DNA from: an uncultured delta proteobacterium
GTDB lineage: Bacteria; Desulfobacterota; Syntrophia; Syntrophales; Smithellaceae
Direction of reading: 5' to 3'
Length of the DNA stretch: 46,170 nucleotides
Assembly (NCBI GenBank): GCA_903907985.1
Contig: CAIVQG010000057.1
Coordinates: 142,614 to 188,783, forward strand
Shown: in pieces, positions 10,559-29,964 of the stretch
Layout of the letters: each line of letters begins with the position of its first letter
Numbering within the stretch: the first letter of the stretch is position 1
The notes under the pieces: generated by a model
The model's database searches: none
Told to the model about the DNA's origin: nothing
Seen by the model: only the letters and a program-made list of their open reading frames with translations
Position numbers and translations under genes: made by a program

Positions 10559-10586
10559 AAGCATCCCCTTTTTCTAATTGTTGCTT

Positions 10587-10721: not shown

Positions 10722-10729
10722 AATATTCC

Positions 10730-10758: not shown

Positions 10759-10764
10759 ACTCCC

Positions 10765-11847: not shown

Positions 11848-11862
11848 AAAAAGGGAGGAGTT

Positions 11863-13265: not shown

Positions 13266-13269
13266 TACC

Positions 13270-14132: not shown

Positions 14133-14136
14133 CAAA

Positions 14137-15437: not shown

Positions 15438-15503
15438 ACCGGCTGCGAGACAAATGCGGTACACACAACATAAGTCCATGTTATTATTAAATCAAACAAA
15501 GTT

Positions 15504-15548
15504 CTTTTAATCCGTTGGCCGGGGGTTCAAATCCCCCACGGCCCACCA
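15504..15548 (+). repeat. att site: 3' half of tRNA-Lys(UUU), first copy
   Basis: A 45-bp identical copy occurs at 29920. It runs from the anticodon loop (CTTTTAA) through the T arm (GGGGGTTCAAATCCCCC) to the acceptor strand and CCA. The 5' flank (AAGTT) cannot pair with TCCGT, so this is not a complete tRNA gene. The two integrases converge on it, making it the junction of elements A and B. Confidence 0.92.
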
Positions 15549-15571
15549 CTAGTACCAATGGTTTGCCAGTG

Positions 15572-16669
15572 TTATTCATTTGCCGCCTTTTCATTTTTGT
15601 GAAGTAATTGTGAAGTTCGTGAATTGGTCAAGGTGTCGTTTAAGATATCAACTGCCTTGACTTTATGTGATGGTGCAAGGTGGGCATATCTGAGGGTCAT
15701 CGTTAAAGTCTTATGGCCTAACAATTCTTTGATAGTCGTTATATCTATCCCTGCCATGATAAGTTGACTAGCGAATGTATGCCGAAGATCATGAAATCGG
15801 AAGTCTCGAATCTTTGCTTTCTTGCAAGCTGTCACAAAAGAATGGTGAACATTTAGATAAGGTTTTTTAGTTGTATAGTCGTAAAAAACAAATGGGACAT
15901 CAATTCGCCGGGGTCGTTTTGCTGTCCCTTTAAATAATTCTTCAAGAGTAGCCTTTAATGTTGCATTGATCGGAATCTCGCGCCGTTCTCCGTTTTTTGT
16001 ATGATCCAACAAAATAAACCCATGCGTCCTATCAACGTTATCCCATTTCAGATTTAATATTTCGCTTTTTCTCATCCCCGTATTTAAAGCCATAACCACT
16101 ATCGGCTTGAGGTGTATCAATTGTTTGTCACATACAGCAATCAAAGTCTGACATTCTTCCTTTGAAAGAAACCGCAACCGCCGGTTGTTTTCTTCAAGCA
16201 TCTTAGCCCTTCTGATCCTCTTCAGTGTGTCTTCCTCTACCATGTCCCATTCAACGGCTTTCGTAAACATATGCTTGATAGTGGCAATATGGCGGTTAAT
16301 GGTTGCCGGTTTATTTCCTGTCTGCAATCTTTCGGATTGATAAGTTTCAAGAAGACGACTGTCAAACCGTCTTAATTGTAATTGACCATATTTATCTTTT
16401 AACTGATTTATAACTAGCTCTTTCTGCTTAAATGCCCGTTGCCGTTCAGCCCATTTCAGGTAATCAGTAACAAGATCATCAAAAGTATGGTTTTCAATTC
16501 TTTTGATTTCTGGCATCTTTCCTTCTCTGATTCCTTGCCGCCTTTTAATGAGAAGAGTTTCCGCATCCCTGAATTTTGTTGACTTTGATGTTTCACGGAT
16601 CACATTCCCATCAAGTCCAGCATAGACAATCCAAAAGACATTTCCACGCTTATAGATTCCTTTTGCCAT
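15572..16669 (-). CDS. int: Tyrosine recombinase/integrase of element B (365 aa)
   Basis: Complete phage-type integrase. The N-terminal AP2-like arm-binding segment opens GIYKRGNVFWIVYAG, a SAM-like core-binding domain spans about 65-165, and the catalytic residues are R (NTGMRKSEIL), K (HTKNGERREIP), H-x-x-R (HDLRHTFASQL), H (LLGHKTLTM) and Y (RYAHL). It ends 24 bp from the att copy and lies downstream of a small XRE gene (2-bp gap). It differs clearly from the element A integrase although both target the same tRNA. Confidence 0.95.
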   Translation of the reverse strand: MAKGIYKRGNVFWIVYAGLDGNVIRETSKSTKFRDAETLLIKRRQGIREGKMPEIKRIENHTFDDLVTDYLKWAERQRAFKQKELVINQLKDKYGQLQLRRFDSRLLETYQSERLQTGNKPATINRHIATIKHMFTKAVEWDMVEEDTLKRIRRAKMLEENNRRLRFLSKEECQTLIAVCDKQLIHLKPIVVMALNTGMRKSEILNLKWDNVDRTHGFILLDHTKNGERREIPINATLKATLEELFKGTAKRPRRIDVPFVFYDYTTKKPYLNVHHSFVTACKKAKIRDFRFHDLRHTFASQLIMAGIDITTIKELLGHKTLTMTLRYAHLAPSHKVKAVDILNDTLTNSRTSQLLHKNEKAANE

Positions 16670-16671
16670 AA

Positions 16672-16872
16672 TTAATGCTCCTTTCCTTTCTCGTTGCCGT
16701 GTTCTTCTAATATTGTTAATAAAATCTTTAACGTCTTGCTTGGTTGCCTCACCCCCTTTTCAAGATAAATAACATATCTCTCTGTGACCCCTATCATCTG
16801 AGCAAAGTCTTTCTGGTAAAGGGTTAAACGATTTCTGAATTCCTTTATTTCTTCTGGTGTCCAATTCTTCAT
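16672..16872 (-). CDS. XRE-family regulator of element B, leaderless (66 aa)
   Basis: Small HTH_3 protein (LTLYQKDFAQMIGVTERYVI, then YLEKGVRQPSKTL). ATG 16872 is chosen over one at 16902 because the latter lies inside the promoter. The promoter is TTGACA-17-TATATT with only 6 nt to the ATG, and its spacer is a 19-bp palindrome, so it is probably an autorepressor that also controls the co-transcribed integrase. It is the likely Stl/Rpr-type master regulator of the element by position. Confidence 0.85.
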   Translation of the reverse strand: MKNWTPEEIKEFRNRLTLYQKDFAQMIGVTERYVIYLEKGVRQPSKTLKILLTILEEHGNEKGKEH

Positions 16873-16878
16873 GGCTTC

Positions 16879-16907
16879 AATATATACATGAACAATGTTC
16901 ATGTCAA
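16879..16907 (-). promoter_or_regulatory. Promoter of the element B xre-int operon, leaderless geometry
   Basis: Minus strand TTGACA (16907-16902), 17 bp, TATATT (16884-16879), then 6 nt to the ATG. Confidence 0.88.
16886..16904. promoter_or_regulatory. 19-bp palindromic operator
   Basis: ACATGAACA-A-TGTTCATGT is a perfect 9-1-9 palindrome filling the promoter spacer and touching the -35 box. No second copy was noticed elsewhere in the window. Confidence 0.85.
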
Positions 16908-17012
16908 GGGGTTTTTATTTACTTCACAATTTAATTCACAATGCTTTATAAGTAATTGATATTTAATGCTGATTGTCGCTATATAACGGATAAGCAATCC
17001 GTTTGCTTGGTT

Positions 17013-17312
17013 TCAATTAGTCGCAATGTAACCAGTCTTTTGAATATTCTTATCAATGTCCCGTTGTCTGAATTTATAATACTTGCCGGTCTTGAAACAT
17101 GGAATTTGACCATTCCTTGCTTTATCTCGAACCCACTCTTCATTGACATTTAAATAAGCAGCAAGTCCCTTAACATCAAAGATTGTATCTTTCTCATATT
17201 TGGGTGCTGATAATAACGGCTTCAATTTCTCAAAAACCTTATCGGCAATACGGTCAATCAGTTCATCGGAAATATCGGTTTGAATGTTCATGCTGATTCC
17301 TTGATGGTTCAT
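17013..17312 (-). CDS. Excisionase-family DNA-binding protein (99 aa)
   Basis: The C-terminal half is a MerR-like HTH-17 domain (FDVKGLAAYLNVNEEWVRDKARNGQIPCFKTGKYYKFRQRDIDK). The N-terminal half is a short helix-rich segment (ISDELIDRIADKVFEKLKPLL) often seen in these proteins. It belongs to element B and is likely its excisionase. A second start eight codons downstream (17291) also has AAGGA before it. Confidence 0.85.
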   Translation of the reverse strand: MNHQGISMNIQTDISDELIDRIADKVFEKLKPLLSAPKYEKDTIFDVKGLAAYLNVNEEWVRDKARNGQIPCFKTGKYYKFRQRDIDKNIQKTGYIATN

Positions 17313-17493
17313 CGTTCATCCTTTATTCAAGAACATCCTCGACTGGTTCGATAAATGGTTAGGTTGTTATTTACCCGTCCTGCCTCGCCACGTTGCCCCG
17401 TGTTCAACAAATGCCCAAAGGGTGGGGTAGAGGTCGACGGCATCGGATTCAATGTATAACATGCTCGCTTCTTTACGAATCACCATTCTGGGC

Positions 17494-18045
17494 TTAATCC
17501 CCGCTGACATCAATTACATCTTCTTTCTTTTCCTGTTGTGGTGTCGTAATGGTTGCAATCAGCATTCTTATCTCATGGTCAGATATAACTTCGATTCTCT
17601 CTGGGGAGTAATCACCGGCCAGCTTGAAACTCATGTCCAGACCCTTGCCGACAACAGACAGATCAGGGCATTCAATCATATCTCTGAGCCTCTCTATTCT
17701 TCGCCTTCTTGGAATTCCTGATTGTGCCATTAAATCTTGGATAGCAACGGCAACGTCCGGGTCTTTCATCAAAACTGTTGCCATGCTCTTTGCTGACTCG
17801 TTTGTGGTTACTTCATAGGCTGACTTAACTGCATCCTGATTTGTTCTGCCTTCCAGTTTGGCAAGAACGAATTTCTGTTCTTTGCCTGTCAGTTTCTTAA
17901 AACTCTCCGGGGCTGCATACGCTTCCAGTTTTTTTATTCTCTGATTTATTGCCGATGGACTAACGCCATAAAATTGTGCTGCCTCTTTTTGTGATTTACC
18001 GACTTTGATCATTTCTTGTAGTTCTGTATCATTAATCTTACGCAT
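17494..18045 (-). CDS. terS: Terminase small-subunit-like protein (183 aa)
   Basis: An N-terminal helix-turn-helix (SQKEAAQFYGVSPSAINQRI) is followed by the Terminase_2-type segment LTGKEQKFVLAKLEGRTNQDAVKSAYE and a helical oligomerisation region. Small terminases bind the pac/cos site and hand DNA to the large subunit. No large subunit or capsid gene lies in element B, so a lone TerS fits a satellite that redirects a helper phage packaging motor. The strong ribosome site is GGAGGT. The alternative is a simple HTH regulator with a similar fold. Confidence 0.7.
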   Translation of the reverse strand: MRKINDTELQEMIKVGKSQKEAAQFYGVSPSAINQRIKKLEAYAAPESFKKLTGKEQKFVLAKLEGRTNQDAVKSAYEVTTNESAKSMATVLMKDPDVAVAIQDLMAQSGIPRRRRIERLRDMIECPDLSVVGKGLDMSFKLAGDYSPERIEVISDHEIRMLIATITTPQQEKKEDVIDVSGD

Positions 18046-18059
18046 AGATTGTTTACCTC

Positions 18060-18419
18060 CTATTGCTTAATTTTCTTAATCTGCTTAATTGTGTTTTCAG
18101 TTATGGAAAATGCTTCCCATTGACCAACTGCATTTTTAAACTCATCCAATGTGCTTTCGCCGCCTAAAACCTTTTTATAAATTACCGTCACATTACCTTC
18201 TGCCTGTATGATTTTATCGCTTGATCTGAATTGCTTGCCATTGCAGGCCGTGACGATCTCATCTAACGCTTGAGCAATGACAGATTCCAAGATTGCCTCT
18301 AAACTTTCTTGCCTCCCTTTTGTAATGGGGGTTGCTTTTTTCTCGACAAGCCGAATATTCGCCGGTCTGTTTATTTTGTTTTGACTTTCAACTTTCAATG
18401 CTGCTTGTAGGTAACTCAT
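18060..18419 (-). CDS. Hypothetical element protein (119 aa)
   Basis: Starts after AAAGGAGA. Mostly helical, with a Lys/Arg-rich N-terminal third (KINRPANIRLVEKKATPITKG). It lies between TerS and the DUF3987 gene in the same leftward operon. No family is recognised. Confidence 0.6.
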   Translation of the reverse strand: MSYLQAALKVESQNKINRPANIRLVEKKATPITKGRQESLEAILESVIAQALDEIVTACNGKQFRSSDKIIQAEGNVTVIYKKVLGGESTLDEFKNAVGQWEAFSITENTIKQIKKIKQ

Positions 18420-18432
18420 TTCTGTCTCCTTT

Positions 18433-18459
18433 GCGAAATAAGCGTAATTAGCGAAATAA
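18433..18459 (+). repeat. Three tandem 9-bp units, consensus GCGAAATAA
   Basis: GCGAAATAA, GCGTAATTA, GCGAAATAA in direct succession. An inverted triple lies 20 bp away at 18480 and a third triple at 23601. Confidence 0.7.
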
Positions 18460-18479
18460 CTATTCCAACTCTGTTGACC

Positions 18480-18506
18480 TTTTTTCGCATAATTCGCTTT
18501 TTACGC
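18480..18506 (-). repeat. Inverted triple of 9-bp GCGAANAAA-like units
   Basis: On the minus strand GCGTAAAAA, GCGAATTAT, GCGAAAAAA. It overlaps the last codons of the DUF3987 gene and faces the triple at 18433. Confidence 0.7.
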
Positions 18507-19796
18507 ATCCCATGTAATGCGTTCAACGGGTCTGCCGCCTGTGTTTTCTTCCCGGACAATATTGACGCGCTTGCATTTTTTTAGCAGTTCAAGTGCTTCG
18601 GCAATACGTTCTTTGCTCTGGTGCCGGTCGAATAGATTGTTGATGTCAGTCCGTGTTAGTCCGTTTTCTGATTCCTGCAAGGTCTCGTAAATCTTATCTG
18701 CAACATCATCGCCGGTCTTGCCCTTGAAGATGTGCCTGACCGAAGCTTCCGCGTAATCCCATAAGGCTAGCGCTGCATATAGGTGATCTTTGCGAATGAC
18801 CCGTGAACAATCCATTAAGGCGTAAATGCAGGCAAGGCGCATGACTTGGGCTTCTGCTCTGGATAGGACCGCGCCGATCAAACCGGGTTGCCCTTCAGAT
18901 AATTCATGGTAAATGCTTATCCAGGTTTCCCTTGCTGCTGCATCGCGTTTGATTTCATCAACTGACTTTGCAAATTCAACGGCATTCCTGATTTTATCTG
19001 TCAGAGTAGTCAAATCTATTTCGTAAATTCGTCCACCTTCCGGTAATATCTTTGACCGCCTAACGCACATCCAAAGGAAACGATTTGCAAGGCCGTTGAA
19101 AACTTCTGTTTGCGAAAGGTATCGTTTCAACTCATCTTGGGTGATATGTCCTATTATGCTGACGTGTGCGCCGGTTGCCTTCACGGGGTTGTTCTTGGTT
19201 AGCGTTGCTAAATTACCGTTATCCCATGCCTGCCTGATTGTAGCTGATAGAATATTTCCATCACGACTTGCGGCCTTTAAGACTGACGCAAATTCGCTTT
19301 CTATAACGAGCAATCTTTTATCTAAGATTCCGGGGTCATCTTGCCCCCTGCCGCCGATAGTGGGGTTGCGGACATGATATACAACGCCCTCACCGGAAGA
19401 CAGGCCGCTTTTGATCCGATCACTTGACCATTCATCGTCAATATTTTCAAAAAGCCGGGTGACAATGCCGCCGCTAGTTCCCTTACGCGCCTTTGATGTC
19501 GCGCCGACAATCACGCTAAATAAACGTAACGCATGTTTATCACCTTCCACTTTCCAATGTGGGGCATCGCCTATGACGTTTCCGAAAACTGTCATGGTTT
19601 GAATCAGTATTGCAACGGGGTCGCTTTCTGTATGTGGCTCAATAGTTCTTACTATTTCTCCCGGCAAACCCTGATAGGCAAGGGCATTGATGGGGGCAGG
19701 CCACGAAGTCGAATCGCCGTTGATGGTGATTGTTTCATCCGTTACCTTTGTGTCTTCATATAGTTTTTCTGATAGATTAAACTTTTCCATTCTCAT
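18501..19796 (-). CDS. DUF3987-type replicative ATPase/helicase-like protein (431 aa)
   Basis: DUF3987/YfjI-type protein of phages and satellites. The core begins PAPINALAYQGLPGEIVRTIEP, then has a P-loop-like GATSKARKGTSG around residue 97, an LLVIESEFASVL segment (Walker-B-like with E) and ISIIGHITQDEL as sensor-like strand. The C-terminal 80 residues resemble a winged helix. It overlaps the CHC2 primase gene by 20 bp, and the pair replaces a single DnaG/helicase-type protein. It should unwind or organise the element's origin. Confidence 0.8.
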   Translation of the reverse strand: MRMEKFNLSEKLYEDTKVTDETITINGDSTSWPAPINALAYQGLPGEIVRTIEPHTESDPVAILIQTMTVFGNVIGDAPHWKVEGDKHALRLFSVIVGATSKARKGTSGGIVTRLFENIDDEWSSDRIKSGLSSGEGVVYHVRNPTIGGRGQDDPGILDKRLLVIESEFASVLKAASRDGNILSATIRQAWDNGNLATLTKNNPVKATGAHVSIIGHITQDELKRYLSQTEVFNGLANRFLWMCVRRSKILPEGGRIYEIDLTTLTDKIRNAVEFAKSVDEIKRDAAARETWISIYHELSEGQPGLIGAVLSRAEAQVMRLACIYALMDCSRVIRKDHLYAALALWDYAEASVRHIFKGKTGDDVADKIYETLQESENGLTRTDINNLFDRHQSKERIAEALELLKKCKRVNIVREENTGGRPVERITWDA

Positions 19797-20322
19797 TTAC
19801 TCCTTGATAAAGTTTGTATTTTTCTTCGTCGGTTCCATTGAATAAGATTTCCATGTGATATTCGACTATGGGCATAAGGTGGAAGTCTTCGGCAAATTCT
19901 TCAATCTCATCCATAGTCTTGCAATCTTTTAAAATGTCCTTTTTTAAAATGTTGTGGAAATCACGATAATAGTCTGTAAGCTCTTGCAAATATTCATGTT
20001 CCCATGATCTGAAGGCTTGCAACAAATCGCGTTTGGTTCTTGCCTTTGGATTAATCTTAACAGGGTGATTACCTTCCAGATTCAGATACTTAAGTGCGTC
20101 TTTAAATGACAATCCATGCAGCTTCTCAATAAAGGTAATTGAATCGCCGCCACTATTGCAGCTAAAGCAATAGAAGGTTTGCTTGTCGGGATTAATCTTG
20201 AATGATGGGGTCTTGTCTGCGTGAAATGGGCAGCTTAGCCACACAGCGCGGCCTTTCCGTTTTGCCGTAAATCCTTCGCGTTCTATGGTTGCGATAATAT
20301 CGGGCTTGTTTTCCATTGTCAT
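19777..20322 (-). CDS. CHC2 zinc-finger primase-like protein (181 aa)
   Basis: DnaG-type zinc-binding domain with the ligands in SCPFHADKTPSF and FYCFSCNSGGDSITFI (C-x2-H...C-x2-C). No TOPRIM catalytic domain follows: the remaining 100 residues are helical. It may act with the downstream DUF3987 protein as a split primase-helicase or origin-recognition unit. The length is half that of a full DnaG, but the gene is not visibly truncated and has a good start after GAAAGGAAA. Confidence 0.88.
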   Translation of the reverse strand: MTMENKPDIIATIEREGFTAKRKGRAVWLSCPFHADKTPSFKINPDKQTFYCFSCNSGGDSITFIEKLHGLSFKDALKYLNLEGNHPVKINPKARTKRDLLQAFRSWEHEYLQELTDYYRDFHNILKKDILKDCKTMDEIEEFAEDFHLMPIVEYHMEILFNGTDEEKYKLYQGVNENGKV

Positions 20323-20340
20323 TTCCTTTCTTACCGGTGA

Positions 20341-20577
20341 TTATCTCGCTGCCAGCATCATTGACCGGGTCTTGCGTAAGTGATGGACATAATCAAGAAT
20401 CCTGACAGAAGGATTTTCATTGTATGCCCTTGTCAGTTTTGTTACTTCCGGGATTGAGGGAAACTCGAAAACTATACGTGTGCCTTGTTTGGTAAGTTCG
20501 GGGGTTATGTTGTTGAGTGAAAGAAATGACGCTAGGTGAATGTCCAAGGTGGGAACTTTAACGTTTTTCATTTTCAT
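20341..20577 (-). CDS. DUF5659-like small protein (78 aa)
   Basis: Short beta/alpha protein with the pattern TLDIHLASFLSLNNITPEL, then FEFPSIPEVTKLTRAYNEN, found in small proteins beside phage and satellite replication genes. It is the first gene after the repeat-rich region at 20590-20744 and is followed by the primase gene. The function is unknown. Confidence 0.6.
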   Translation of the reverse strand: MKMKNVKVPTLDIHLASFLSLNNITPELTKQGTRIVFEFPSIPEVTKLTRAYNENPSVRILDYVHHLRKTRSMMLAAR

Positions 20578-20589
20578 ACCTCGTTTGCA

Positions 20590-20744
20590 TTGGAGTAGAG
20601 ATAATTAATCTCTCTATAGTTATAGTTGGAGTTGTTTGGACATGTTTGGACATGTAGTTGGAGATGTTTGGAGTTTAGTAAGATATACTACTGAATTTAT
20701 TAAATAATATTTATTAGATATTTTTTGCAAATATCCAATTTGGA
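20590..20744. repeat. Phased TTGGA repeats with adjoining AT-rich tract: candidate replication origin
   Basis: TTGGA begins at 20590, 20626, 20636, 20646, 20658, 20668 and 20740. The central five are spaced 10, 10, 12 and 10 bp, so they lie on one face of the helix, and two are extended to TTTGGACATG. An AT-rich stretch (20673-20735) follows, and AGAGAT-N5-ATCTCT lies at 20597-20613. The setting, in front of a primase operon with no gene in 185 bp, suits an iteron-type origin or a multi-site operator. Confidence 0.6.
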
Positions 20745-20762
20745 GGTTGCTAGAAAGAAAGA

Positions 20763-21737
20763 TTATTCTTCGATAGTTCCATTGATGTAATCTTTCACCC
20801 TTCGTTCACCTAGCCATCCCTTTTCTTGTGCAATGCCTGTGGCGGATTTCAATGCGGCAAGGTCAGAACGACTTGTCGATAACTCTTGAATTATCTTTAT
20901 AAGCTCTGGTTGAGAACATTGGTTATATTCAACAATCTGTGTTTTTAAAGTGCTGTTGATAATTTGAAATTTAAATTTATAGATTCCGTGCCGTTCATTT
21001 ACTGGGTGTTCATATATCTTAAATCCTTTCGGCAATTGTTTCCCATAAGATTTGTTTAAGAACAAAACGACTTTATCATTAATACGGCTAAGCCTTTTTT
21101 GGTCTGCGTCATACGTTGAATGACGCTGTCTATCTGCACCATGAGCCTTGCCTGTATAATATGAGTGATGATTTGATTTTATAATCTTTAAAAAGTCCCG
21201 CCATAAGTCTGGTGCCTTTTTAAATCCCAATTCCTCACGTGTATATGTTTTCGGGTTGCCCCCGGTGCTTATTTTAATTTCTGAATCGGTTAAATAGTAA
21301 ACCCTTATAGACCTTACGAAAGTTTCAGCATCATCTTGTTGAATAGGTTGCTGCGTTGGAAATGTTTGTTGTGTATCAGTCTTTTTTACAGATTTTTCAT
21401 AATCGCTTATATCTTCTGCTTTGAAAACTAGCTTGCATAAGAATTCCTGTAATTCAGAGCCATCGTTAAATGCACCTTCATCAAAATGCTCTCCTTGAAA
21501 GTCTTGTGAAATTCGCGCATTAATTGTGTCTGGAATATTTATATCTCTATTGCATATGCTATCGATCAAGAGGCGGATTTCATTATCCGTAAAGGCTTGC
21601 TTTATTTTCTTTTCTTTTTCCGCATTTCTTGCGTATGGGTGTAGTGATTCATTCCTGATTAATGCGATTATTTCAAATGGCTGCATATCCCATTTTGTAA
21701 GCAGTTCATCCGTTGTATACCATCGTTTCATTGCCAT
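20763..21737 (-). CDS. Hypothetical element protein with N-terminal HTH-like segment (324 aa)
   Basis: The N-terminal 70 residues (RWYTTDELLTKWDMQPFEIIALIRNESLHPYA) recall a helix-turn-helix module that reads element DNA. A central Q-rich linker (about 115-140) leads to a C-terminal alpha/beta region (about 145-320). No family is recognised. A start two codons downstream (MKRWYTT) is also possible. Its position next to the TTGGA repeats makes it a candidate initiator, but this is a guess. Confidence 0.65.
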   Translation of the reverse strand: MAMKRWYTTDELLTKWDMQPFEIIALIRNESLHPYARNAEKEKKIKQAFTDNEIRLLIDSICNRDINIPDTINARISQDFQGEHFDEGAFNDGSELQEFLCKLVFKAEDISDYEKSVKKTDTQQTFPTQQPIQQDDAETFVRSIRVYYLTDSEIKISTGGNPKTYTREELGFKKAPDLWRDFLKIIKSNHHSYYTGKAHGADRQRHSTYDADQKRLSRINDKVVLFLNKSYGKQLPKGFKIYEHPVNERHGIYKFKFQIINSTLKTQIVEYNQCSQPELIKIIQELSTSRSDLAALKSATGIAQEKGWLGERRVKDYINGTIEE

Positions 21738-21761
21738 CCCTCACAATCATCCCGTAGTTAA

Positions 21762-21816
21762 TGAGGCCAAGGCCGGTGGGAATTACCGGCTTTTCGGGAG
21801 CTACCCTATGGCCTCA
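21762..21816. other. Structured intergenic element, three-way-junction-like
   Basis: Outer arms TGAGGCCA (21762-21769) and TGGCCTCA (21809-21816) enclose GCCGGT/ACCGGC (21772-21777 with 21785-21790) and GGG/CCC (21796-21798 with 21804-21806). No clear T-run follows on the minus strand. It lies between the lipoprotein gene and the 324-residue gene and could be a terminator without U-tract, an RNA regulator, or a boundary. Confidence 0.45.
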
Positions 21817-21839
21817 ATGTTTGTTACAATAAAATATTA

Positions 21840-22427
21840 TCATTTCTTTTCGGCTAGTCTTCGTTTTAAAATGTCGGCCATATTTGAAGTGAAATTTCTC
21901 CGGGATGACATATTGTTGCTCCACATAGATATAAGCACTTCCCCCGTTACAGTATCGACAAACCTTATACTTGCTGAGCTATAACCAGCCGTTGCATAAT
22001 TATAACGATCCGCAGTTCCCATTACTATCATATCGATGTCCAGCAATTTTCCAACCTTATTAAGATCGTCTTTGCTCAACATACCAGACATAGAAAGTTG
22101 AAGTTCATTAAAAATTCGCTGTATCTGTGTCCGCTCGACTACGGTGTATCCCATTTCCATTAATTTTGCTGCAAACACATCGCTTGCTTGTGACGCAAGA
22201 ACAACACCTCTTCGATCAGCATATGGGTCGTCCTTATGGTCGGCAACAATCGGCATTACTGCCACTTTTCGATGTTTTTTCGTGTCAAAGTTAGGGCTAA
22301 TGACAACAGATACATTGGTTTCGTCCAATGGAATGCTTCTTGCGATAGGCCCACATCCAGTCAATGAAGTGAAAAGGAATATAACTAAAGATGATAGTGT
22401 CAAAATCCATACATATCGGTTTTTCAT
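21840..22427 (-). CDS. CsgG/LpoB-like outer-membrane lipoprotein (195 aa)
   Basis: Lipoprotein signal peptide with hydrophobic core and lipobox LTGC (C25). The mature part follows the CsgG/LpoB fold: KVAVMPI strand, ASDVFAAKLMEMGYTVVERTQIQRI, GKLLDIDMIVMGTADRY and VDTVTGEVLIS. Such proteins sit in the outer membrane and activate peptidoglycan synthases or form export pores. The gene follows the TPR gene with a 69-bp gap and may be co-transcribed. It is unusual as satellite cargo, so it may mark where phage-like DNA ends. Confidence 0.8.
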   Translation of the reverse strand: MKNRYVWILTLSSLVIFLFTSLTGCGPIARSIPLDETNVSVVISPNFDTKKHRKVAVMPIVADHKDDPYADRRGVVLASQASDVFAAKLMEMGYTVVERTQIQRIFNELQLSMSGMLSKDDLNKVGKLLDIDMIVMGTADRYNYATAGYSSASIRFVDTVTGEVLISMWSNNMSSRRNFTSNMADILKRRLAEKK

Positions 22428-22496
22428 AATTCCTCCATTATTTTTTACCTTTCAGAGAATCTTCAGTCGCTGGTGTCCCCTGTTAGTAGAATCTAA

Positions 22497-23642
22497 TCAA
22501 CGGCAATATCCCTTGCCTTTAACAAATTCTAACATTTTGCAATTTCCTAGTTCACAAGCTTTTTGAACATCATGGCATCCAAGATTGTAGTTGCCCTGCA
22601 ATAAATAAGCACCCCCCCTGTTATTCCAGGCGCCGTCATTTTTCGGGTTTAAACGTATGGCCTCATTAAAGTCTTCAATGGCACGCTGATTCTGGCCAAG
22701 TTTAAGGTAAGTTGTTCCCCTGTGTTCGTAGTAATTGTCACTATCAGGCCGGCGGCGGATGGCCTCGTCGAAATCCTTAATGGCGCTCTGAAACTGATCA
22801 AGGTTAGCGTAAGCAATCCCCCGGTTGTTGTATGCCATGGAAAGATTCTTGTTGTGGGGAGCCAGTCGCATAAGCTCACTATAATCATCTATTGCCCGCT
22901 GGTGCTGGTTGAGTTCAAAGTATGCTTGCCCCCGGCCGAAGTATGCCAAGGAATTATTAGGATTGAGACGGATGGACTCGTTCAGGTACTCAATAGCCTT
23001 TATAGGGTCTGTGAATTTGTCGTTCTGCAAGAGTGCCAGAGCTTTATTAAACCAATCTATGGCTTTAAGCCCTTGAGAGACATCCTGAAACTGTTTTTTC
23101 AGTCCCCCTGTGCTTTGCTTTTTCGCCATCAGGCGCTGGTTTGCTGCGCCCAGTCTGGCAACTTCATCCAGCAATTCCTTTTCCTTGTTTCTGGCCTGAT
23201 TGAGTTGATCCAAGTGGGTTCTATCTTGTAGTAGCTTTTTGACGCTGCTTTCCAAGACGGAAGTATCAACAATAATCTTTGCGACTACTTCAATCCCGAA
23301 GGCTTCCCCGGTAATGTAGTTCTTCTGTGATACAATCTCAGATTTCAAGACACCCGCTGATATGGCCAATATTTCATCCTTGTCCACTTTTGCATCTTTC
23401 ACAATAGTCAGGGCTTCCACATAAACCCCGGCCATTTCCAATGCCTCCCGCTTAGCCTTTGCTACAGCTGAAATCAGGGCGTCATCGGCGGATTGACTAC
23501 CTCCGAAAGCTTGCTTGACGGTATGGGTGATGGTCTGTATTTCACAGAATGAAGGTGTTGGGAAAAGGGAAATGATGAGGACTGATATAAAGGCAATGAC
23601 TATTTTCGCTTCTTTCGCATTATTCGCAGGGTATAGTTCCAT
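22497..23642 (-). CDS. Secreted TPR protein (381 aa)
   Basis: N-terminal signal peptide (IVIAFISVLIISLFPTPSFC). Residues 40-150 resemble a surface-protein domain with basic helices (AVAKAKREALEMAGVYVEA), followed by a coiled coil (about 145-175) and at least four TPR units, each ending in ESIRLNPNN, ELMRLAPHN, EAIRRRPDS or EAIRLNPKN. ATG 23642 is chosen because AAGGAG is 7 nt upstream; an ATG at 23648 is too close. Probably a periplasmic interaction protein working with the downstream lipoprotein. The first codons overlap a 3x9-bp repeat array, which encodes NNAKEAKI. Confidence 0.85.
   Translation of the reverse strand: MELYPANNAKEAKIVIAFISVLIISLFPTPSFCEIQTITHTVKQAFGGSQSADDALISAVAKAKREALEMAGVYVEALTIVKDAKVDKDEILAISAGVLKSEIVSQKNYITGEAFGIEVVAKIIVDTSVLESSVKKLLQDRTHLDQLNQARNKEKELLDEVARLGAANQRLMAKKQSTGGLKKQFQDVSQGLKAIDWFNKALALLQNDKFTDPIKAIEYLNESIRLNPNNSLAYFGRGQAYFELNQHQRAIDDYSELMRLAPHNKNLSMAYNNRGIAYANLDQFQSAIKDFDEAIRRRPDSDNYYEHRGTTYLKLGQNQRAIEDFNEAIRLNPKNDGAWNNRGGAYLLQGNYNLGCHDVQKACELGNCKMLEFVKGKGYCR
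23601..23627 (-). repeat. Third triple of 9-bp GCGAANNAA units, inside the TPR gene
   Basis: Minus strand GCGAATAAT, GCGAAAGAA, GCGAAAATA, read in frame as part of the signal-peptide region of the TPR protein. Same unit as 18433 and 18480. Confidence 0.65.
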
Positions 23643-23730
23643 TTGCATTCTCCTTTCCGCTATTTATGGCGTAACTATAAAATTAAATCCAGTGCTTTGT
23701 TTTGTTCATCTACTGAAGCACAATCAGCAA

Positions 23731-23772
23731 TAAAAAAGCCGGAACCAGCGTGATTAAACGCTAATCCCGGCT
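23731..23772 (-). terminator. Intrinsic terminator after the antiporter gene
   Basis: Minus-strand stem AGCCGG...CCGGCT (23772-23737) with an inner AGCG/CGCT pair, followed by TTTTTT. It ends the antiporter transcript before the TPR gene. Confidence 0.8.
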
Positions 23773-23922
23773 CAAGTGTTTTGATACCGTGTCAAATTAA
23801 GTCTTTTCTTGACAGCTATAACATCTACTTATCAAGTATTTTTGGTTCGGCTATAGCGCGACGATTACCACTTCTAATCTTCAAAGATGACCAATATCTA
23901 AGATATACGGCATTCATTAGAA

Positions 23923-25125
23923 TTACAGTTTATTAATAATATCTTTTTGGTCGGGAACCTGATCATCCAAAATAGGTGCTTCGAGCAGATGAATCGGTAG
24001 AAAGAATTTGTTCGCAATGAGCGTCGGTATCACAGCACTGGCAATTACAGCTCCGACAATGTAAGAATACTGTGCCTGCGTAATGATATTATTAGTCAAG
24101 CCATATAATGCGGAGATGGTTCCGAATGTCAAGCCGGTGGACATCAGCAGAGTGTAATACCATTTCTCATTTTTATCCTCCCGAAAACGATGAATGGCCG
24201 GATACAGCCCGAATATCTTAGTAATAACTTTACCGCCAAAAAGCACAAGAAATATAACGGGAGCAGCGGCAAGCGCCGGTATTGAAACAAGAGCTCCAGC
24301 CCTCAAGAAATATAACGGTGTTAAAAAGCCAACAGTCAAAGTTCTTAATCTTCGAACAAAATGACCGTCCTTTTCCATGGTTTTTGCCAAAACCATTCCC
24401 AGCACATAGGCAGGCAACACCGGTTCGCTGCCTGACCATAAAGCAAGCACGCCCATAGCAAGCAGGACGAAAAGTACCCATTTCGCGCGGATTGCGGCGG
24501 TCTTATAGGCGAAACGACGAATGATGAAATCCGTCAAAGGGGCTAAAGTAAAAATCAAAAGAATCGTTGCCGCAATGAATATCAATGTTTTATAAGTGAA
24601 AGGGGCAAATATTAAACCCAATGCGATAACGGTTCCCAGGTCATTGATGAAACAGGCGCCTAAAACACCCTTGCCGAATTCTGTTTTATTAAATCCATAT
24701 TCCAGCATTACCGCATAGACGACGGCCATGGAGGTCGTGGAAAGCGCGATTCCGCACAAAAGACTGGCCTGCATATTCCATCCGATAAGATAATAGGCAA
24801 TCAAAGAGCAGCCAATAAAGGGCGCGGAAAATCCGATCAATCCTATTACGGAGACTTCCGTGATCTTGGATTTCATGGCATCGGGATTTAGCTCCGCTCC
24901 CGCAAGAAACGTCAACAAGATAGCGCCTACGCCGGTTAAAAATTTGAGCCAGTCGGCATGGAGCGACAGCCTGTCAAAGTAACCGAGTTGGAAAGCGGCA
25001 AATCCGATAATCGTGCCAACGATAATCTCCACGAGGGCGATCGATATTTTCAGGCGATTGGCAAGAATGGTTGATAAAACAGCGGCGAAGAACCAAAAAG
25101 CAGCAAGCAAATAAATACTATCCAT
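23923..25125 (-). CDS. CPA-type cation/H+ antiporter under fluoride riboswitch control (400 aa)
   Basis: Integral membrane protein of about 12 segments in the Na+/H+ exchanger domain family (KefB/GerN-like). The ion-binding pair is FINDLGT near residue 160, an N-D pair as in electroneutral exchangers, where CPA2 proteins often have D-D. No C-terminal TrkA-N domain is present. Translation is predicted to be controlled by a fluoride riboswitch ending at its ribosome site (AGGAG, 7 nt before ATG), so it likely helps cells survive fluoride by adjusting pH or ions, or possibly by moving fluoride-linked ions. The terminator at 23731 isolates it from the TPR gene. Confidence 0.9.
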   Translation of the reverse strand: MDSIYLLAAFWFFAAVLSTILANRLKISIALVEIIVGTIIGFAAFQLGYFDRLSLHADWLKFLTGVGAILLTFLAGAELNPDAMKSKITEVSVIGLIGFSAPFIGCSLIAYYLIGWNMQASLLCGIALSTTSMAVVYAVMLEYGFNKTEFGKGVLGACFINDLGTVIALGLIFAPFTYKTLIFIAATILLIFTLAPLTDFIIRRFAYKTAAIRAKWVLFVLLAMGVLALWSGSEPVLPAYVLGMVLAKTMEKDGHFVRRLRTLTVGFLTPLYFLRAGALVSIPALAAAPVIFLVLFGGKVITKIFGLYPAIHRFREDKNEKWYYTLLMSTGLTFGTISALYGLTNNIITQAQYSYIVGAVIASAVIPTLIANKFFLPIHLLEAPILDDQVPDQKDIINKL

Positions 25126-25195
25126 AAAATAACTCCTATAAAAAAATAATAGGAGTCATTAGCAATGTTTGCGATTAAAGGTGAACCCCATCACC
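25126..25195 (-). promoter_or_regulatory. Fluoride (crcB) riboswitch upstream of the antiporter
   Basis: Aptamer on the minus strand from GGTGATGGGGTTCACC (25195-25180) to AATGACTCCTA (25160-25150), matching the crcB consensus GGNGATGGNGTTCNCC...GATNACNCCTA. The 3' strand CTCCTA normally pairs in the pseudoknot; here ACTCCTAT (25156-25149) is also perfectly complementary to ATAGGAGT (25139-25132), which contains the ribosome site. Fluoride binding should therefore free AGGAG and switch translation ON. Confidence 0.9.
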
Positions 25196-25231
25196 CGCGC
25201 GGGAAAGCGATAAGTCTTTACGGCATGAGGC

Positions 25232-25259
25232 AATTAACAAAACGGCATATGATTGTCAA
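25232..25259 (-). promoter_or_regulatory. Promoter of the riboswitch-antiporter unit
   Basis: Minus strand TTGACA (25259-25254), 16 bp, TTAATT (25237-25232), about 35 nt before the aptamer. Confidence 0.6.
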
Positions 25260-25285
25260 CAAAATATTTGGCGGCGTTTTTTAAA

Positions 25286-25918
25286 TTAGAACTTATTTTT
25301 GATCATTTCAACCATACCCAAAGGATAGCCACCGGTAAAGGAAGCCATGCTGTGAATATGAGCATCCTGCCAGTTTAAATGATATTTATCAGAGTGTGAC
25401 CGAATAAAAGAAATAACATCTTCGTGTTTCAAATAATGCAGAGAAATTGTGTACACCGGAATAAGCTGTGCTTTCAATAGCATTAAATCATTTGCTGGCA
25501 GAAAGTTTTCCGCAATGGCGATAAACTGAAAATGTTCTTCCTCAATGAGATACCTTAGAAAAATAATTTTCTGTGGGGTTAATTTCGCGACATTGTCAAA
25601 AACGATGACGCGTTTGTTTATGGTTGACGAGCCAATCGTAGCGATGCGATAGCGCATGGACTTATAACCCATTTTTTTGCCGGTTTTTTTGAGTCGTGAA
25701 AAGATATGGAGTTCTTTCACAAGTATTTTACTCATTTTGCCGGGCGTTTGACCAAAATCTACAAAAACAAATAGTCGCTTGTCGCCTATCTTTTTTGCTA
25801 TTTCCTTTACAAGCGCGGTGCGTCCGATGCCGAATTTTCCACTAAGAACGATATTCTTCCCCTGTTGCAACTCTTTTATGATTTTCTTTTTTTCATTTTC
25901 CCGGCCTACAAAAATCAT
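25286..25918 (-). CDS. ATPase of the AAA/archaeal-ATPase type with altered Walker A (210 aa)
   Basis: Starts FVGRENEKKKIIKELQ, the opening typical of AAA_16/archaeal ATPases, then a P-loop GKFGIGRTAL in which the usual lysine is replaced by arginine (R at about 33), and a Walker B strand RVIVFDNVAKL. The C-terminal part (about 140-205) is helical. With the K-to-R change it may bind but poorly hydrolyse ATP. It lies between the GGGtGRT gene and the antiporter, upstream of the antiporter's own promoter. The function is unknown. Confidence 0.7.
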   Translation of the reverse strand: MIFVGRENEKKKIIKELQQGKNIVLSGKFGIGRTALVKEIAKKIGDKRLFVFVDFGQTPGKMSKILVKELHIFSRLKKTGKKMGYKSMRYRIATIGSSTINKRVIVFDNVAKLTPQKIIFLRYLIEEEHFQFIAIAENFLPANDLMLLKAQLIPVYTISLHYLKHEDVISFIRSHSDKYHLNWQDAHIHSMASFTGGYPLGMVEMIKNKF

Positions 25919-25976
25919 ATAAATACCTCTCTCTTATTTTTCGACAGTAAGGATAGACGGTATTTTGATCATGTGT

Positions 25977-26012
25977 GTGCCACACTGTCCGTAAAATAAG
26001 GCAGTGTGGCAC
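25977..26012. terminator. Strong inverted repeat after the GGGtGRT gene
   Basis: Perfect 11-bp arms GTGCCACACTG (25977-25987) and CAGTGTGGCAC (26002-26012) with a 14-nt loop. No T-run follows, so it may act as an mRNA 3' stabiliser or factor-dependent terminator between GGGtGRT and the ATPase. Confidence 0.55.
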
Positions 26013-26026
26013 TCGATAGATAATGG

Positions 26027-27025
26027 TTATTTCATTGCCTGTTCCACAGCAACAGCAACAGCAACCGATGCGCCCACCATTGGATTATTTCCCATTCCAA
26101 TTAATCCCATCATTTCCACATGGGCGGGAACGGATGATGAACCTGCAAACTGTGCGTCGGAATGCATTCGTCCCATCGTGTCGGTCATACCATAGGATGC
26201 CGGTCCTGCAGCCATGTTGTCGGGATGAAGTGTTCTTCCTGTGCCACCGCCGGAGGCTACGGAGAAAAACTTTTTTCCCGCTAGCAGTCGTTCTTTTTTG
26301 TAAACACCCATAACCGGATGTTGGAAACGTGTCGGATTTGTGGAATTCCCCGTTATGGCAACATCAACGCCTTCCAGATGCATGATGGCCACGCCCTCAC
26401 GCACATCATCTGCTCCAAAACATCTGACCGCCGCGCGATCACCAGTGGAATAAGCTTTTTCCTTCGCCACGGAGACCTTCCCTGTTTTATAGTCGAAAGC
26501 TGTTGCGACGTGGGTGAATCCGTTTATACGGGCTATAATGTAAGCGGCGTCTTTGCCTAATCCATTAAGAATTACCCGCAGAGGAGCTTTTCTTGCCTTG
26601 TTTGCGGATTTGGCAAGGCCGATGGCACCTTCTGCCGCTGCGAATGATTCGTGTCCAGCGCAGAAAGCGAAACAGGTGGTTTCTTCACGCAGAAGCATGG
26701 AAGCAAGATTTCCGTGACCGATGCCCACTTGACGGTCATCGGCGACTGATCCGGGAATGCAGAACGACTGAAGTCCTTCGCCTAGCGTTTTGGCAACATC
26801 AGCGGCATTTTTTTGCCCCTTCTTTATCGCGGCGGCGGCGCCTACAAGATAGGCCCATCCGGCGTTATCAAATGAAATCGGCTGAATATCCTTTACAATT
26901 TTTCGAACATCAATGCTTTTCCCGATGCATACTTTTTCGGCTTCCTCTAAGGAGGAAATTCCATATTTGGCGAGAAAAGGAGTGATTTGTTGAATTCTTC
27001 TTTCGTATCCTTCAAATATAGCCAT
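26027..27025 (-). CDS. GGGtGRT family protein (332 aa)
   Basis: Defined by the motif VASGGGTGRTLHPDN near residue 258, after which the family is named. Typical of strict anaerobes and usually next to a NifU/IscU-like scaffold, as here (11-bp gap). It has several Gly/Ala-rich segments (IGHGNLASMLLREETTCFAFCAGHESFAAAEGA is too long to be one motif but contains conserved C and H). It likely works with the scaffold in metal or Fe-S handling; no reaction is established. The ribosome site is AAGGAG. Complete and unbroken. Confidence 0.9.
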   Translation of the reverse strand: MAIFEGYERRIQQITPFLAKYGISSLEEAEKVCIGKSIDVRKIVKDIQPISFDNAGWAYLVGAAAAIKKGQKNAADVAKTLGEGLQSFCIPGSVADDRQVGIGHGNLASMLLREETTCFAFCAGHESFAAAEGAIGLAKSANKARKAPLRVILNGLGKDAAYIIARINGFTHVATAFDYKTGKVSVAKEKAYSTGDRAAVRCFGADDVREGVAIMHLEGVDVAITGNSTNPTRFQHPVMGVYKKERLLAGKKFFSVASGGGTGRTLHPDNMAAGPASYGMTDTMGRMHSDAQFAGSSSVPAHVEMMGLIGMGNNPMVGASVAVAVAVEQAMK

Positions 27026-27036
27026 TTTTAAACTCC

Positions 27037-27729
27037 TTATCCTTTACGTGGGTTAATTGTTTTTACAGCCTCAGCAAAACGGCCGTAAGTTCCCGTAGCT
27101 TTGGTAAGCGCACTCGCTGCATCAGTACCCTTGGCAATATTATCCATCATGACGCCAAGCTGAACGAATTTGTAGCCGATTATTTCGTTGTCACTGTCGA
27201 GTCCGATTTCAGTAACATAGCCTTCAGCCATTTCCAGATAGCGGGGGCCTTTTTCCCGAGTGCCGTACATGGTGGCAATAACACTGCGCAGTCCCTTGCC
27301 CAGATCTTCCAGACCCGCGCCAATAGGCAGTCCGCCTTCGGAAAACGCGGTTTGCGTGCGGCCATAAACAATCTGGAGAAAGATTTCCCTCATGGCGACA
27401 TTGATCGCATCACAGACGAGATCGGAATTAAGTGCTTCCAGAATGGTTTTGTTCGGCAGAATTTCGGCGGCCATTGCAGCGGAATGGGTCATTCCGGTAC
27501 ATCCGATGGTTTCCACCAGCGCTTCTTCGATGATACCGTTTTTAACATTCAGGGTAAGTTTGCATGCGCCCTGCTGAGGCGCGCACCAACCGACGCCATG
27601 GGTAAGGCCGCTGATATCTTTAATTTCCTTCACCTGTGTCCACTTGCCCTCTTGAGGAATGGGGGCGGGACCGTTTTTAGCGCCCTTGGCGACTACGCAC
27701 ATTTGTTCAATTTCATGAGTGTGTTCCAT
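27037..27729 (-). CDS. NifU/IscU-like iron-sulfur scaffold protein (230 aa)
   Basis: NifU_N-type scaffold. Conserved cysteines occur in GWCAPQQGACKLTL and IGCTGMTHSAAM, with a third Cys region around DLVCDAIN. These ligate Fe-S clusters during assembly and transfer. It is longer than IscU, with an extended C-terminal part (about 130-230) specific to the group paired with GGGtGRT proteins. It follows the dynamin gene by 55 bp without a visible terminator, so read-through from the fluoride riboswitch leader is possible. The ribosome site is AAGGAG, 11 nt before ATG. Confidence 0.85.
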   Translation of the reverse strand: MEHTHEIEQMCVVAKGAKNGPAPIPQEGKWTQVKEIKDISGLTHGVGWCAPQQGACKLTLNVKNGIIEEALVETIGCTGMTHSAAMAAEILPNKTILEALNSDLVCDAINVAMREIFLQIVYGRTQTAFSEGGLPIGAGLEDLGKGLRSVIATMYGTREKGPRYLEMAEGYVTEIGLDSDNEIIGYKFVQLGVMMDNIAKGTDAASALTKATGTYGRFAEAVKTINPRKG

Positions 27730-27784
27730 AAAAAATAAATCTCCTTCCAGTCATATTCTTTCCTTTCTTTAAAAAAAGTTGGTT

Positions 27785-29452
27785 TTATTCTGATAAATTT
27801 TCAGATATTTTTTTTATTTGCATGATCAATTGTTTAATGTCATCCGTCTGGCCTTGTGTCCGGGAAAGCAGTGCTTCGATGGTCGCGAGTTCTTCCTGAA
27901 TGTAAATAATTGCTTGGATGCGCATTGCCTCAATAGCATTATTTACATTCTTTTCCCACTGGTAAGCCAGCCTCGACAAGTTGATCTCCACTTCTTTCGG
28001 AATTCCTTGAAGAAAATGCCGCTCAAAGAGCCGCCGGAACAAGAACATGGGAATGAGAAACCATAGTAGATCCAGATGAATATCAAAAGATTTTGTGAAG
28101 GCAATGTCAGGGTGATCGGGTTCGGCAACGTCTATTTTCCAATTGATCCCAACCAGCTTTACACCCAGCACATTTTCAATATTGTCGTCAAGGAATTTGC
28201 GGAAAGCTCCCAGAGATCTCGAAAAGCTCGCATGTGCTTTTTTCAGTGTTCCCAGAAAATGAACATGCTCGGTTTTGGAAAGGTGGTGCATTTCCTCGGA
28301 GAGAGTTTCTGATACCCATGCTTCATAACGCCGGGAGAGTCTCCAGAGATTGCCCTGCCATAAGGGCATATCTTTTTCCAGCTTTCCTTTTACTTTTCTG
28401 ATCAGTGGCACCAAAAATTGTTCCAAATAGGTTTCAATAATGGGGCGGGTTTGCCGCTGATGCTCACGCGAAATAATACCCAGTTCTTCGCGCATCATGG
28501 TTTCATTGACTTTCTCATTGAGAATTTGCTCACTCAGGTTCTCACGATTCAAATCAGCCTGCAAAGATGAATGCAGCGCGATACTGAGATAACTCAGGCA
28601 GCTCTGTGACAATGAGTTGGTTTTATGCTTTAGAATTCTTAAAAATTCAGAATCACGGTTTGCACAAATCGTCTGAAAAATGCTTTGTTCAATGAGGTGT
28701 TTATATTCATCAGTCTTACTTTTTGTAGAATATAGATATACAGGTAGCGTCCGGTGAAGTTCCCGCTGGAGTGTCTGCTGAAAGAACGTGATAACTTCCT
28801 GTTGCTGATCAGGTGTAAGAAGATCGGCCTTAGTCAGTAAAATAATAATATTCGGTGTATGATTGGTCAGTTCTCGAATCAAATCCAGATCATTCTCCGA
28901 CAGAGGCCGGTCGGAGCTTACGGCCAGAATGGCTGTTCCAACTGCTGGAAGCCAGCTTTCGGATGTGGACTGGTGATATTTGTAGACACTGCCGAGGCCG
29001 GGTGTATCCACTAATCGCAAGCCGGAATATTTTTGCAAAATGGGCAATTCAATATCCACAATCGCGACGTTTTTATCATTGCCGGGATTTTTAGACTCCG
29101 ACGTAAACTCAACAATATCGGACATCGGCGCTTCCGTTGTTCGTCCATTGAAATGGCGCACCAATGCGCGTTCCTTCGCTCCATATTGTAGGCGCGTAAC
29201 TGCGGTGGTAACCGGAATAGCGCCAACAGGCAAAACACTCTGACCAAGCAGGCTATTAAGAAAAGAACTTTTCCCGGCCTTGAACTGTCCTAAAACAGCC
29301 ACATCGATGGGTGGATTTTCCAAAAGTAAATTCTGAGCGGCAGACAGTTGTCGCTTTAGTGTAACCATTTGGAAGCGATTGCAGGCTTCAGAAATTATTT
29401 CTAATAGGTTACGGATATCGGATAGGGGTATTTGGCTTGAAAGATTATCCAT
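27785..29452 (-). CDS. Bacterial dynamin-like GTPase under fluoride riboswitch control (555 aa)
   Basis: Dynamin-family GTPase. G1 GQFKAGKSSF near residue 57, G3 DTPGLG near 152, G4 LTKADLL near 212. The rest is helical with long coiled segments, and a hydrophobic stretch LDLLWFLIPMFLF near residue 468 could insert in or lie on the membrane, as in other bacterial dynamins. These proteins bind, fuse or remodel membranes. ATG 29452 is chosen (MDNLSSQIPL): the longer frame starts with GTG 29461 inside the ribosome-site hairpin. The leader is a fluoride riboswitch. The C-terminal 90 residues may form the middle/paddle region. Confidence 0.85.
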   Translation of the reverse strand: MDNLSSQIPLSDIRNLLEIISEACNRFQMVTLKRQLSAAQNLLLENPPIDVAVLGQFKAGKSSFLNSLLGQSVLPVGAIPVTTAVTRLQYGAKERALVRHFNGRTTEAPMSDIVEFTSESKNPGNDKNVAIVDIELPILQKYSGLRLVDTPGLGSVYKYHQSTSESWLPAVGTAILAVSSDRPLSENDLDLIRELTNHTPNIIILLTKADLLTPDQQQEVITFFQQTLQRELHRTLPVYLYSTKSKTDEYKHLIEQSIFQTICANRDSEFLRILKHKTNSLSQSCLSYLSIALHSSLQADLNRENLSEQILNEKVNETMMREELGIISREHQRQTRPIIETYLEQFLVPLIRKVKGKLEKDMPLWQGNLWRLSRRYEAWVSETLSEEMHHLSKTEHVHFLGTLKKAHASFSRSLGAFRKFLDDNIENVLGVKLVGINWKIDVAEPDHPDIAFTKSFDIHLDLLWFLIPMFLFRRLFERHFLQGIPKEVEINLSRLAYQWEKNVNNAIEAMRIQAIIYIQEELATIEALLSRTQGQTDDIKQLIMQIKKISENLSE

Positions 29453-29528
29453 ATATAACACCTACAGGTCGAATTAACTGTAGGAGTTATCAGCCACATG
29501 GGCGGTTAATAAGGTGAACTCCATCACC
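29453..29528 (-). promoter_or_regulatory. Fluoride (crcB) riboswitch upstream of the dynamin-like gene
   Basis: Aptamer on the minus strand: GGTGATGGAGTTCACC (29528-29513), TTAACCGCCCATGTGGCTGA in the variable stem, then TAACTCCTAC, an almost perfect match to the crcB consensus. AACTCCTACAG (29488-29478) pairs with CTGTAGGTGTT (29467-29457) with one mismatch and a 10-nt loop; the latter carries the AGGTG ribosome site. As at 25126, the aptamer 3' strand doubles as anti-Shine-Dalgarno, so fluoride should turn translation ON. Confidence 0.92.
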
Positions 29529-29560
29529 TATAATTAAAACGACATAAAATTGTGGCACTA

Positions 29561-29589
29561 AATGTATTTAAAAAGGTATATTTAGTCAA
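29561..29589 (-). promoter_or_regulatory. Promoter of the riboswitch-dynamin unit
   Basis: Minus strand TTGACT (29589-29584), 17 bp, TACATT (29566-29561), leading to a leader of about 100 nt that contains the aptamer. Confidence 0.65.
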
Positions 29590-29919
29590 CATGATTATTT
29601 CTAGAGTACCTTTGTGGCTATTTAAGATATTTGTCGTTTATTTCCGATTCTAATCATTCATTTTTGTTGAGGTTGACGTTTTGTGTAGTACAGGAAGCAC
29701 TCTCTGATGCAAGTACTCATCACGCCCCGAAAATCCAAAGGTTATTGGTCAACACATTGCAAAGCTTAACCTGTAGAAATGTGAAGTTACTGTGTAGTAC
29801 GTAAGAAAATATATGGAAGTTTAAGCCGGTAAACAACATTAGTTAAGATTTAAGATTTACTGTTTAAAAACACACAAAAAGGCACACCACCTAAGGTGGC
29901 CTAATCATTGGTGAAATAA
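29590..29919. other. Gene-free right end of element B
   Basis: No coding frame is supported in these 330 bp between the dynamin promoter and the att copy. The sequence is AT-rich, and a small hairpin CCACC-TAA-GGTGG lies near 29886-29900. Integrase arm-binding sites may lie here, but none is obvious. Confidence 0.45.
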
Positions 29920-29964
29920 CTTTTAATCCGTTGGCCGGGGGTTCAAATCCCCCACGGCCCACCA
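29920..29964 (+). repeat. att site: 3' half of tRNA-Lys(UUU), second copy
   Basis: Identical over 45 bp to 15504-15548, in the same orientation. The bases before it (AATAA) do not pair with the anticodon-stem strand TCCGT, so no complete tRNA is present. It marks the right end of element B. Confidence 0.92.

Follow-up and report, generated by a model that had tools for sequence, protein, structure and literature searches.

Fluoride riboswitch aptamers precede dynamin-like GTPase genes in a Smithellaceae bacterium and its relatives

The window, by which we mean the whole stretch of 46,170 nucleotides analyzed here, encodes on its minus strand a dynamin-like GTPase (27785-29452) whose 5' leader holds a fluoride riboswitch aptamer. 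A cmscan search of the whole window placed an RF01734 aptamer at 29474-29537 on the minus strand with 59.3 bits against a gathering score of 34 (E 4.8e-14), and the match covers positions 1-64 of the 64 in the model and is therefore full-length. The preliminary description had proposed, from the letters alone, that the leader of a dynamin gene is a fluoride aptamer, and had named a subthreshold covariance score as grounds for abandoning the idea; the score lies well above threshold, and the gene downstream does encode a PF00350 protein. The interval that it had assigned to the riboswitch, 29453-29589, contains both aptamer and leader, although the aptamer itself occupies only 29474-29537. Translation from the ATG at 29452, 21 nt past the aptamer, would give a protein of 555 amino acids; the open reading frame is listed from a GTG at 29461, which is also possible and would give 558. 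The 29453-29473 segment (minus strand) is a putative expression platform: its 3' arm, CUGUAGG, which includes the Shine-Dalgarno sequence, can pair with CCUACAG of the aptamer according to folding and openness modeling. Scanning the upstream DNA for promoters gave 3, close to the 2.0 expected by chance.

Following the dynamin gene on the same strand are genes for a 230-amino-acid NifU-like protein (27037-27729) with a weak match only (TIGR03419, E 9e-5, far under cut-off; no Pfam match), a 332-amino-acid GGGtGRT protein (26027-27025; PF14057, E 1e-186) and a 210-amino-acid small AAA-type ATPase (25286-25918; AAA_22, E 1e-5, under Pfam cut-offs). A second fluoride aptamer (25143-25204, minus strand, 49.7 bits) then precedes the gene for a 400-amino-acid CPA2-type cation:proton antiporter (23923-25125, minus strand; PF00999, E 9e-33; TIGR00932, 104 bits, under cut-off). 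The genome has three fluoride aptamers in all, the third (57.3 bits) lying outside the window and followed by a 405-amino-acid open reading frame that groups with the CPA2 antiporters. We considered the NifU-like and GGGtGRT proteins as constant partners of the dynamin and rejected the idea because the GGGtGRT cluster occurs in only 6 of 81 loci (the window and 80 public loci). Both proteins are 92-97% identical to their counterparts in three of these loci (L100, L110, L114), and the adjoining dynamins are 69-78% identical. GGGtGRT is found in iron-response tables of Bacteroides and Clostridium (PMC10434189, PMC5395762).

Judged by its boundaries and gene content, the operon is the apparent cargo of a 14.4-kb integrative element (15504-29964) at a tRNA-Lys repeat. 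Perfect 45-bp repeats (plus strand, 15504-15548 and 29920-29964, identical at 45/45 bp) flank it and duplicate the 3' terminus of tRNA-Lys; a search of the window with ARAGORN yielded no complete tRNA, and an intact tRNA-Lys lies farther left on the same contig (L311). Within the element are a tyrosine integrase (15572-16669, minus strand; PF00589, E 2e-34; phrog_1) that lies 24 bp from the left repeat, a CHC2 zinc-finger primase-like protein (19777-20322, minus strand; PF01807, E 9e-24), an int-alpA RNA (21751-21816, minus strand; RF02996, 42.3 bits, cut-off 35.8) and a terminase-small-like gene. No relatives of the integrase or primase were present in the best 80 of 143 public loci, and tRNAs lay near four of the 80, so the mobile setting is observed in the window's genome only and the notion that fluoride operons travel on integrative elements in general is unsupported. 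The repeat occurs a third time at the intact tRNA, which suggests that another element of about 62 kb stands in tandem with the first and takes in contig C57 from roughly 96.0 kb onward together with window positions 1-15548; this candidate contains an integrase (14439-15437) and an int-alpA RNA (6730-6794).

Dynamin-like proteins occur widely among bacteria and, to our knowledge, the inducer or role is known for few of them. The window's protein matches PF00350 (Dynamin_N) with 89.1 bits against a cut-off of 27 (E 4.3e-25), and its GTPase motifs G1, G3 and G4 are intact (GQFKAGKS, DTPG and TKAD). The AlphaFold2 model (m6e3876596345; pLDDT 80.9, pTM 0.73) has predicted long helices. Foldseek ranked IniA and BDLP first, with poor whole-length superposition (TM 0.34-0.38), and the top VIA-align matches were mitofusin 1, Fzo1 and IniA (Z 19-21). 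Residues 456-472, the most hydrophobic stretch, contain residues invariant among 31 sequences and may form a membrane-binding segment. The Nostoc BDLP and the Campylobacter dynamin pair resemble the window's protein in profile (E 4e-15 and 5e-20) and in fold (Foldseek E 8e-16 and 1e-11) but are only about 15% identical to it, and we know of no fluoride link for either. Similarity to Bacillus DynA is confined to the GTPase domain (NF052648, 39 bits against a cut-off of 1600), the DynA model spanning 1187 positions as opposed to 555 amino acids; nor are we aware of a fluoride riboswitch for DynA. Mycobacterial IniA is the top Foldseek match (E 1.9e-17) and a profile match (E 1e-16), but it is 17% identical to the window's dynamin, fits poorly over the whole length (TM 0.34, rmsd 16) and is induced by drug, not by fluoride; it is a reported mediator of membrane fission (PMC6715688). 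DynA has been described as a bacterial dynamin in membrane surveillance (PMC8844932).

In an alignment of the window's aptamer with 40 others, P1 and the pseudoknot are paired in 100% of cells, three of their nine pairs have base changes on both sides, and the positions of the binding core are invariant. A chance aptamer match was ruled out by the covariance score and by the recurrence of the aptamer before dynamin genes in relatives. The minimum-free-energy fold of the window's leader (-27 kcal/mol, z -2.3) contains the hairpin between CCUACAG and CUGUAGG, and in many relatives ACUCCU lies opposite AGGAGU followed by a U-run immediately before the start codon. When closure of the pseudoknot was modeled, mean openness of the Shine-Dalgarno sequence rose from 0.09 to 0.38 in the 62 of 67 leaders that were usable. 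The gain was at least 0.3 in 32 of the 62, versus none of the 62 in a control with a neighboring stretch blocked; in the other 30 it was below 0.3 and in some nil. The switch is probably ON with fluoride, as the pseudoknot strand would otherwise pair with the ribosome-binding site. The model predicts this for some half of the leaders or more, and the remainder may use another platform.

The arrangement recurs among the 99 related genomes, the window's own included, which share ancestry and are not independent in the counts that follow. Any dynamin match was found in 54, and 38 contain the 39 high-scoring matches (at least 290 bits; one, in G007, is a fragment). A same-strand aptamer lies 19-196 nt upstream of all 39, above cut-off in 38; the exception, in G010, scores 22.8 bits. 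Among the weak dynamin matches, one of 23 (a 37-residue fragment in G053) is near an aptamer. Above-cut-off aptamers occur in 37 of the 38 dynamin genomes versus 13 of the 61 genomes without the dynamin (Fisher p 6e-15, kinship ignored). Both dynamin and fluoride riboswitch were absent from the three congeners searched. Of the 83 aptamers in these relatives, the next gene was examined for 77, six lying outside the fetched stretches, and assigned for 70; for two of the seven unassigned cases the coordinates point to a dynamin read in the wrong frame (G073) and to the crcB locus of G069. Dynamin is the commonest next gene among the 77 (39 cases), and the CPA2 antiporter follows in 25.

Aptamers before orthologous dynamins extend across genera, families and phyla, as the search of other genomes suggested in the preliminary description has borne out. 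The best 80 of 143 public loci, which have named records, overlap with the 99 relatives; 74 of the 80 have a same-strand aptamer within 3 kb upstream, at no more than 300 nt in 66 and at 0.9-2.9 kb in eight, one of which (L170) rests on a weak match of 19.7 bits. Six of the 80 have no upstream aptamer, two of them (L163, L164) being records that begin inside the gene. The first-family loci L142, L169, L171 and L177 have none upstream, and at L290 the sole aptamer is downstream of the dynamin. In an Rfam scan of ten distant members (36-41% identity), eight loci contained an above-cut-off aptamer, which was upstream and on the same strand in six (L167, L168, L172-L175), and two loci (L171, L177) contained no aptamer. 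The records of the distant members, mostly metagenome-assembled, carry the names Spirochaetes, Bacillota, Syntrophomonadaceae, Hungateiclostridiaceae, Syntrophomonas palmitatica (L175, from the cultured JCM 14374), Chlorobiota and Bacteroidetes. A profile search of 395 genomes of the window's phylum found 27 further first-family dynamins above 300 bits, at least 25 with an aptamer within 3 kb upstream and at least 19 within 200 nt. Two loci have unusual architectures. At L167 (969-1420) three fluoride aptamers lie within 450 bp; an antiporter-enolase-dynamin-HIT operon follows two of them, which are in tandem on the plus strand, and the third faces away. At L074 (2790-3060, a record shared with L107) the aptamer before the dynamin is split in the P3 loop by an insertion of about 180 bp that, read by eye, has inverted-repeat ends, and both aptamer halves look intact.

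A second, more distant dynamin family emerged from the same 395 genomes, with 51 matches at 110-185 bits, mostly of about 600 amino acids. On rescanning of the loci, 38 of the 51 had a same-strand aptamer at most 600 nt upstream and 13 had no upstream aptamer; ten loci carry another aptamer in the opposite orientation. At four of the loci (L220, L222, L224 and L227) the gene read the other way is crcB, which stands head to head with the second-family dynamin, each with its own fluoride riboswitch, so that exporter and dynamin are read from twin riboswitches. At L230, L231 and L236, dynamins without an upstream aptamer are nonetheless surrounded by genes of the fluoride type, for example enolase, crcB, DUF6062, MFS or MutS-like genes. 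Twenty further dynamin-type loci from the order served as a control, eight of them checked as PF00350 and 18 falling in two tree clades; none had an aptamer in the stretch read, which upstream of the gene was short in two (L274, about 600 nt; L287, 100 nt). These 20 loci rule out a riboswitch link as a trait of any dynamin. On a tree of 98 dynamins, whose deep joins are unsure owing to long outgroup branches, the label "riboswitch" needs 9 changes versus a mean of 29.8 for shuffled labels. For this tree, 30 of the 81 family-1 loci (window included) were chosen and 26 entered, four being without a clustered open reading frame; fragments shorter than 450 amino acids (L251, L262, L263) and also L293 were omitted.

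Clustering of the dynamin's neighbors in the window and the 80 loci, with counts that are lower bounds owing to greedy choice of open reading frames, gave enolase in at least 22 loci, a HIT protein in 20, a CPA2 antiporter in 19, a relative of the small AAA protein in 17, DUF6062 in 12, MutS-like proteins in eight and GGGtGRT in six. Six relatives (G008, G013, G053, G072, G073 and G076) have an enolase at the riboswitch-dynamin locus that is a second copy, another being encoded elsewhere in the genome, and it is perhaps a reserve isozyme. Antiporters and enolase have been named for fluoride riboswitches (PMC11139923) and mutS for the class (PMC2864571). The window's aptamer is like the RF01734 (crcB motif) class in its full-length match, P1, P3, pseudoknot, position in a 5' leader and such neighbors, but it differs in preceding a dynamin gene, a gene that does not appear in the relevant passages of PMC11139923 and PMC2864571.

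Neither CrcB nor CLC was found in the window's genome, which is rated 100% complete in 83 contigs. Among the 99 relatives CrcB was above cut-off in three and CLC, a count that takes fluoride-type and other CLC together, in 28; both were missing from 25 of the 38 dynamin-bearing genomes. Above-cut-off fluoride riboswitches are present in 50 of the 99, yet CrcB passes its cut-off in only three. In the phylum draw CrcB was found in five of 35 first-family dynamin genomes versus 170 of 360 others (p 1e-4, phylogeny ignored). It is possible that draft-genome gaps or another, unrecognized exporter explain these absences, and the CPA2 antiporters may be candidate fluoride exporters.

We consider it reasonably likely that, under fluoride stress, the riboswitch induces expression of a bacterial dynamin-like protein dedicated to this response. 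In the RF01734 class, binding of fluoride and Mg2+ is accompanied by closure of the pseudoknot. The elements concerned are conserved in the window's aptamer, where binding is putative; there, closure would make the ACUCC strand unavailable to the Shine-Dalgarno sequence and, as folding predicts, would switch on translation and perhaps transcription. The dynamin would then be made alongside genes that their neighborhood suggests are co-regulated: antiporters in the window, and enolase, MutS-like, DUF6062, HIT or CrcB genes in relatives. From its fold, its conserved hydrophobic patch and its gene company, the GTPase would act on the inner membrane, remodeling it by fission, tethering or fusion, and would keep the membrane tight while the antiporters restore pH. 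In the window's organism this riboswitch-dynamin module would be the cargo of an integrative element. Entry of fluoride as a weak acid makes the cell interior more acidic and reduces the proton-motive force (PMC11139923). Sequence leads us to infer fluoride induction and a protective role for the dynamin at the membrane; repair, sealing or pore removal would be compatible with its fold and neighbors, and a membrane role like that of IniA or DynA under fluoride seems to us the most economical reading.

Complexes of fluoride and Al, Be or Mg resemble phosphate and lock GTPases in a transition state. The dynamin might then be a fluoride target like enolase, the riboswitch boosting the amount of an inhibited housekeeping GTPase that has no protective function. 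Its intact GTPase motifs and its frequent position beside enolase, a classic fluoride target (PMC11139923), are consistent with this. We nevertheless think it unlikely, given that a family so patchy (any match in 54 of 99 relatives, high-scoring in 38) and absent from three congeners is no housekeeping gene, and that the riboswitch is the usual leader of this family but not of the 20 other dynamin-type loci of the order. Still more doubtful is the idea that the dynamin substitutes for a fluoride exporter, with fission into vesicles expelling or isolating damaged membrane or fluoride-laden content. The lack of detected CrcB and CLC in the window's genome and in 25 of the 38 dynamin genomes would suit it, as would the membrane fission reported for the fold neighbor IniA (PMC6715688); but drafts can miss genes, CPA2 antiporters may export fluoride, and the loci in which crcB and a second-family dynamin are arranged head to head (L220, L222, L224, L227) indicate that these dynamins are no simple exporter substitutes.

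That the aptamer is a chance or decayed RF01734-like sequence exerting no control over the dynamin is very improbable. The aptamer of relative G010 is split by an insertion, as decay might have it, but the binding core is invariant in 41 aptamers with helices kept by covariation, the arrangement is common to two dynamin families and several phyla, and the riboswitch label follows the dynamin tree with the few changes given above. Induction of a dedicated dynamin by fluoride is the reading that we prefer, and the recurrence of the pairing in relatives and other phyla suggests that a part played by dynamins in the bacterial fluoride response has been overlooked. A bolder version is conceivable, if somewhat doubtful: that dynamins form one of the main branches of bacterial defense against fluoride, that the window's phylum has at least two families dedicated to it, of which one extends to records named Spirochaetes, Bacillota and Chlorobiota, that they act without detectable CrcB or CLC in 25 of the 38 dynamin genomes of the order, and that the tRNA-targeting integrative element of the window carries the module from host to host. 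Were this so, fluoride tolerance in those 25 genomes would rest on membrane remodeling and proton antiporters.

Searches of the open-access literature found no paper joining a fluoride riboswitch and a dynamin, in agreement with the preliminary description, which knew of no dynamin under fluoride control; papers retrieved for crcB and dynamin together concern other subjects by their titles and the openings of their abstracts. Subscription literature fell mostly outside the scope of the search, and the pairing may therefore already figure in a gene list published there. The riboswitch supplies a chemical trigger for a dynamin family that can be added to a culture, which makes the function of the dynamin directly testable. 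The pairing also suggests that the toxic action of fluoride extends to the membrane and is more than inhibition of enzymes, and that certain anaerobes may cope with fluoride without the known exporters.
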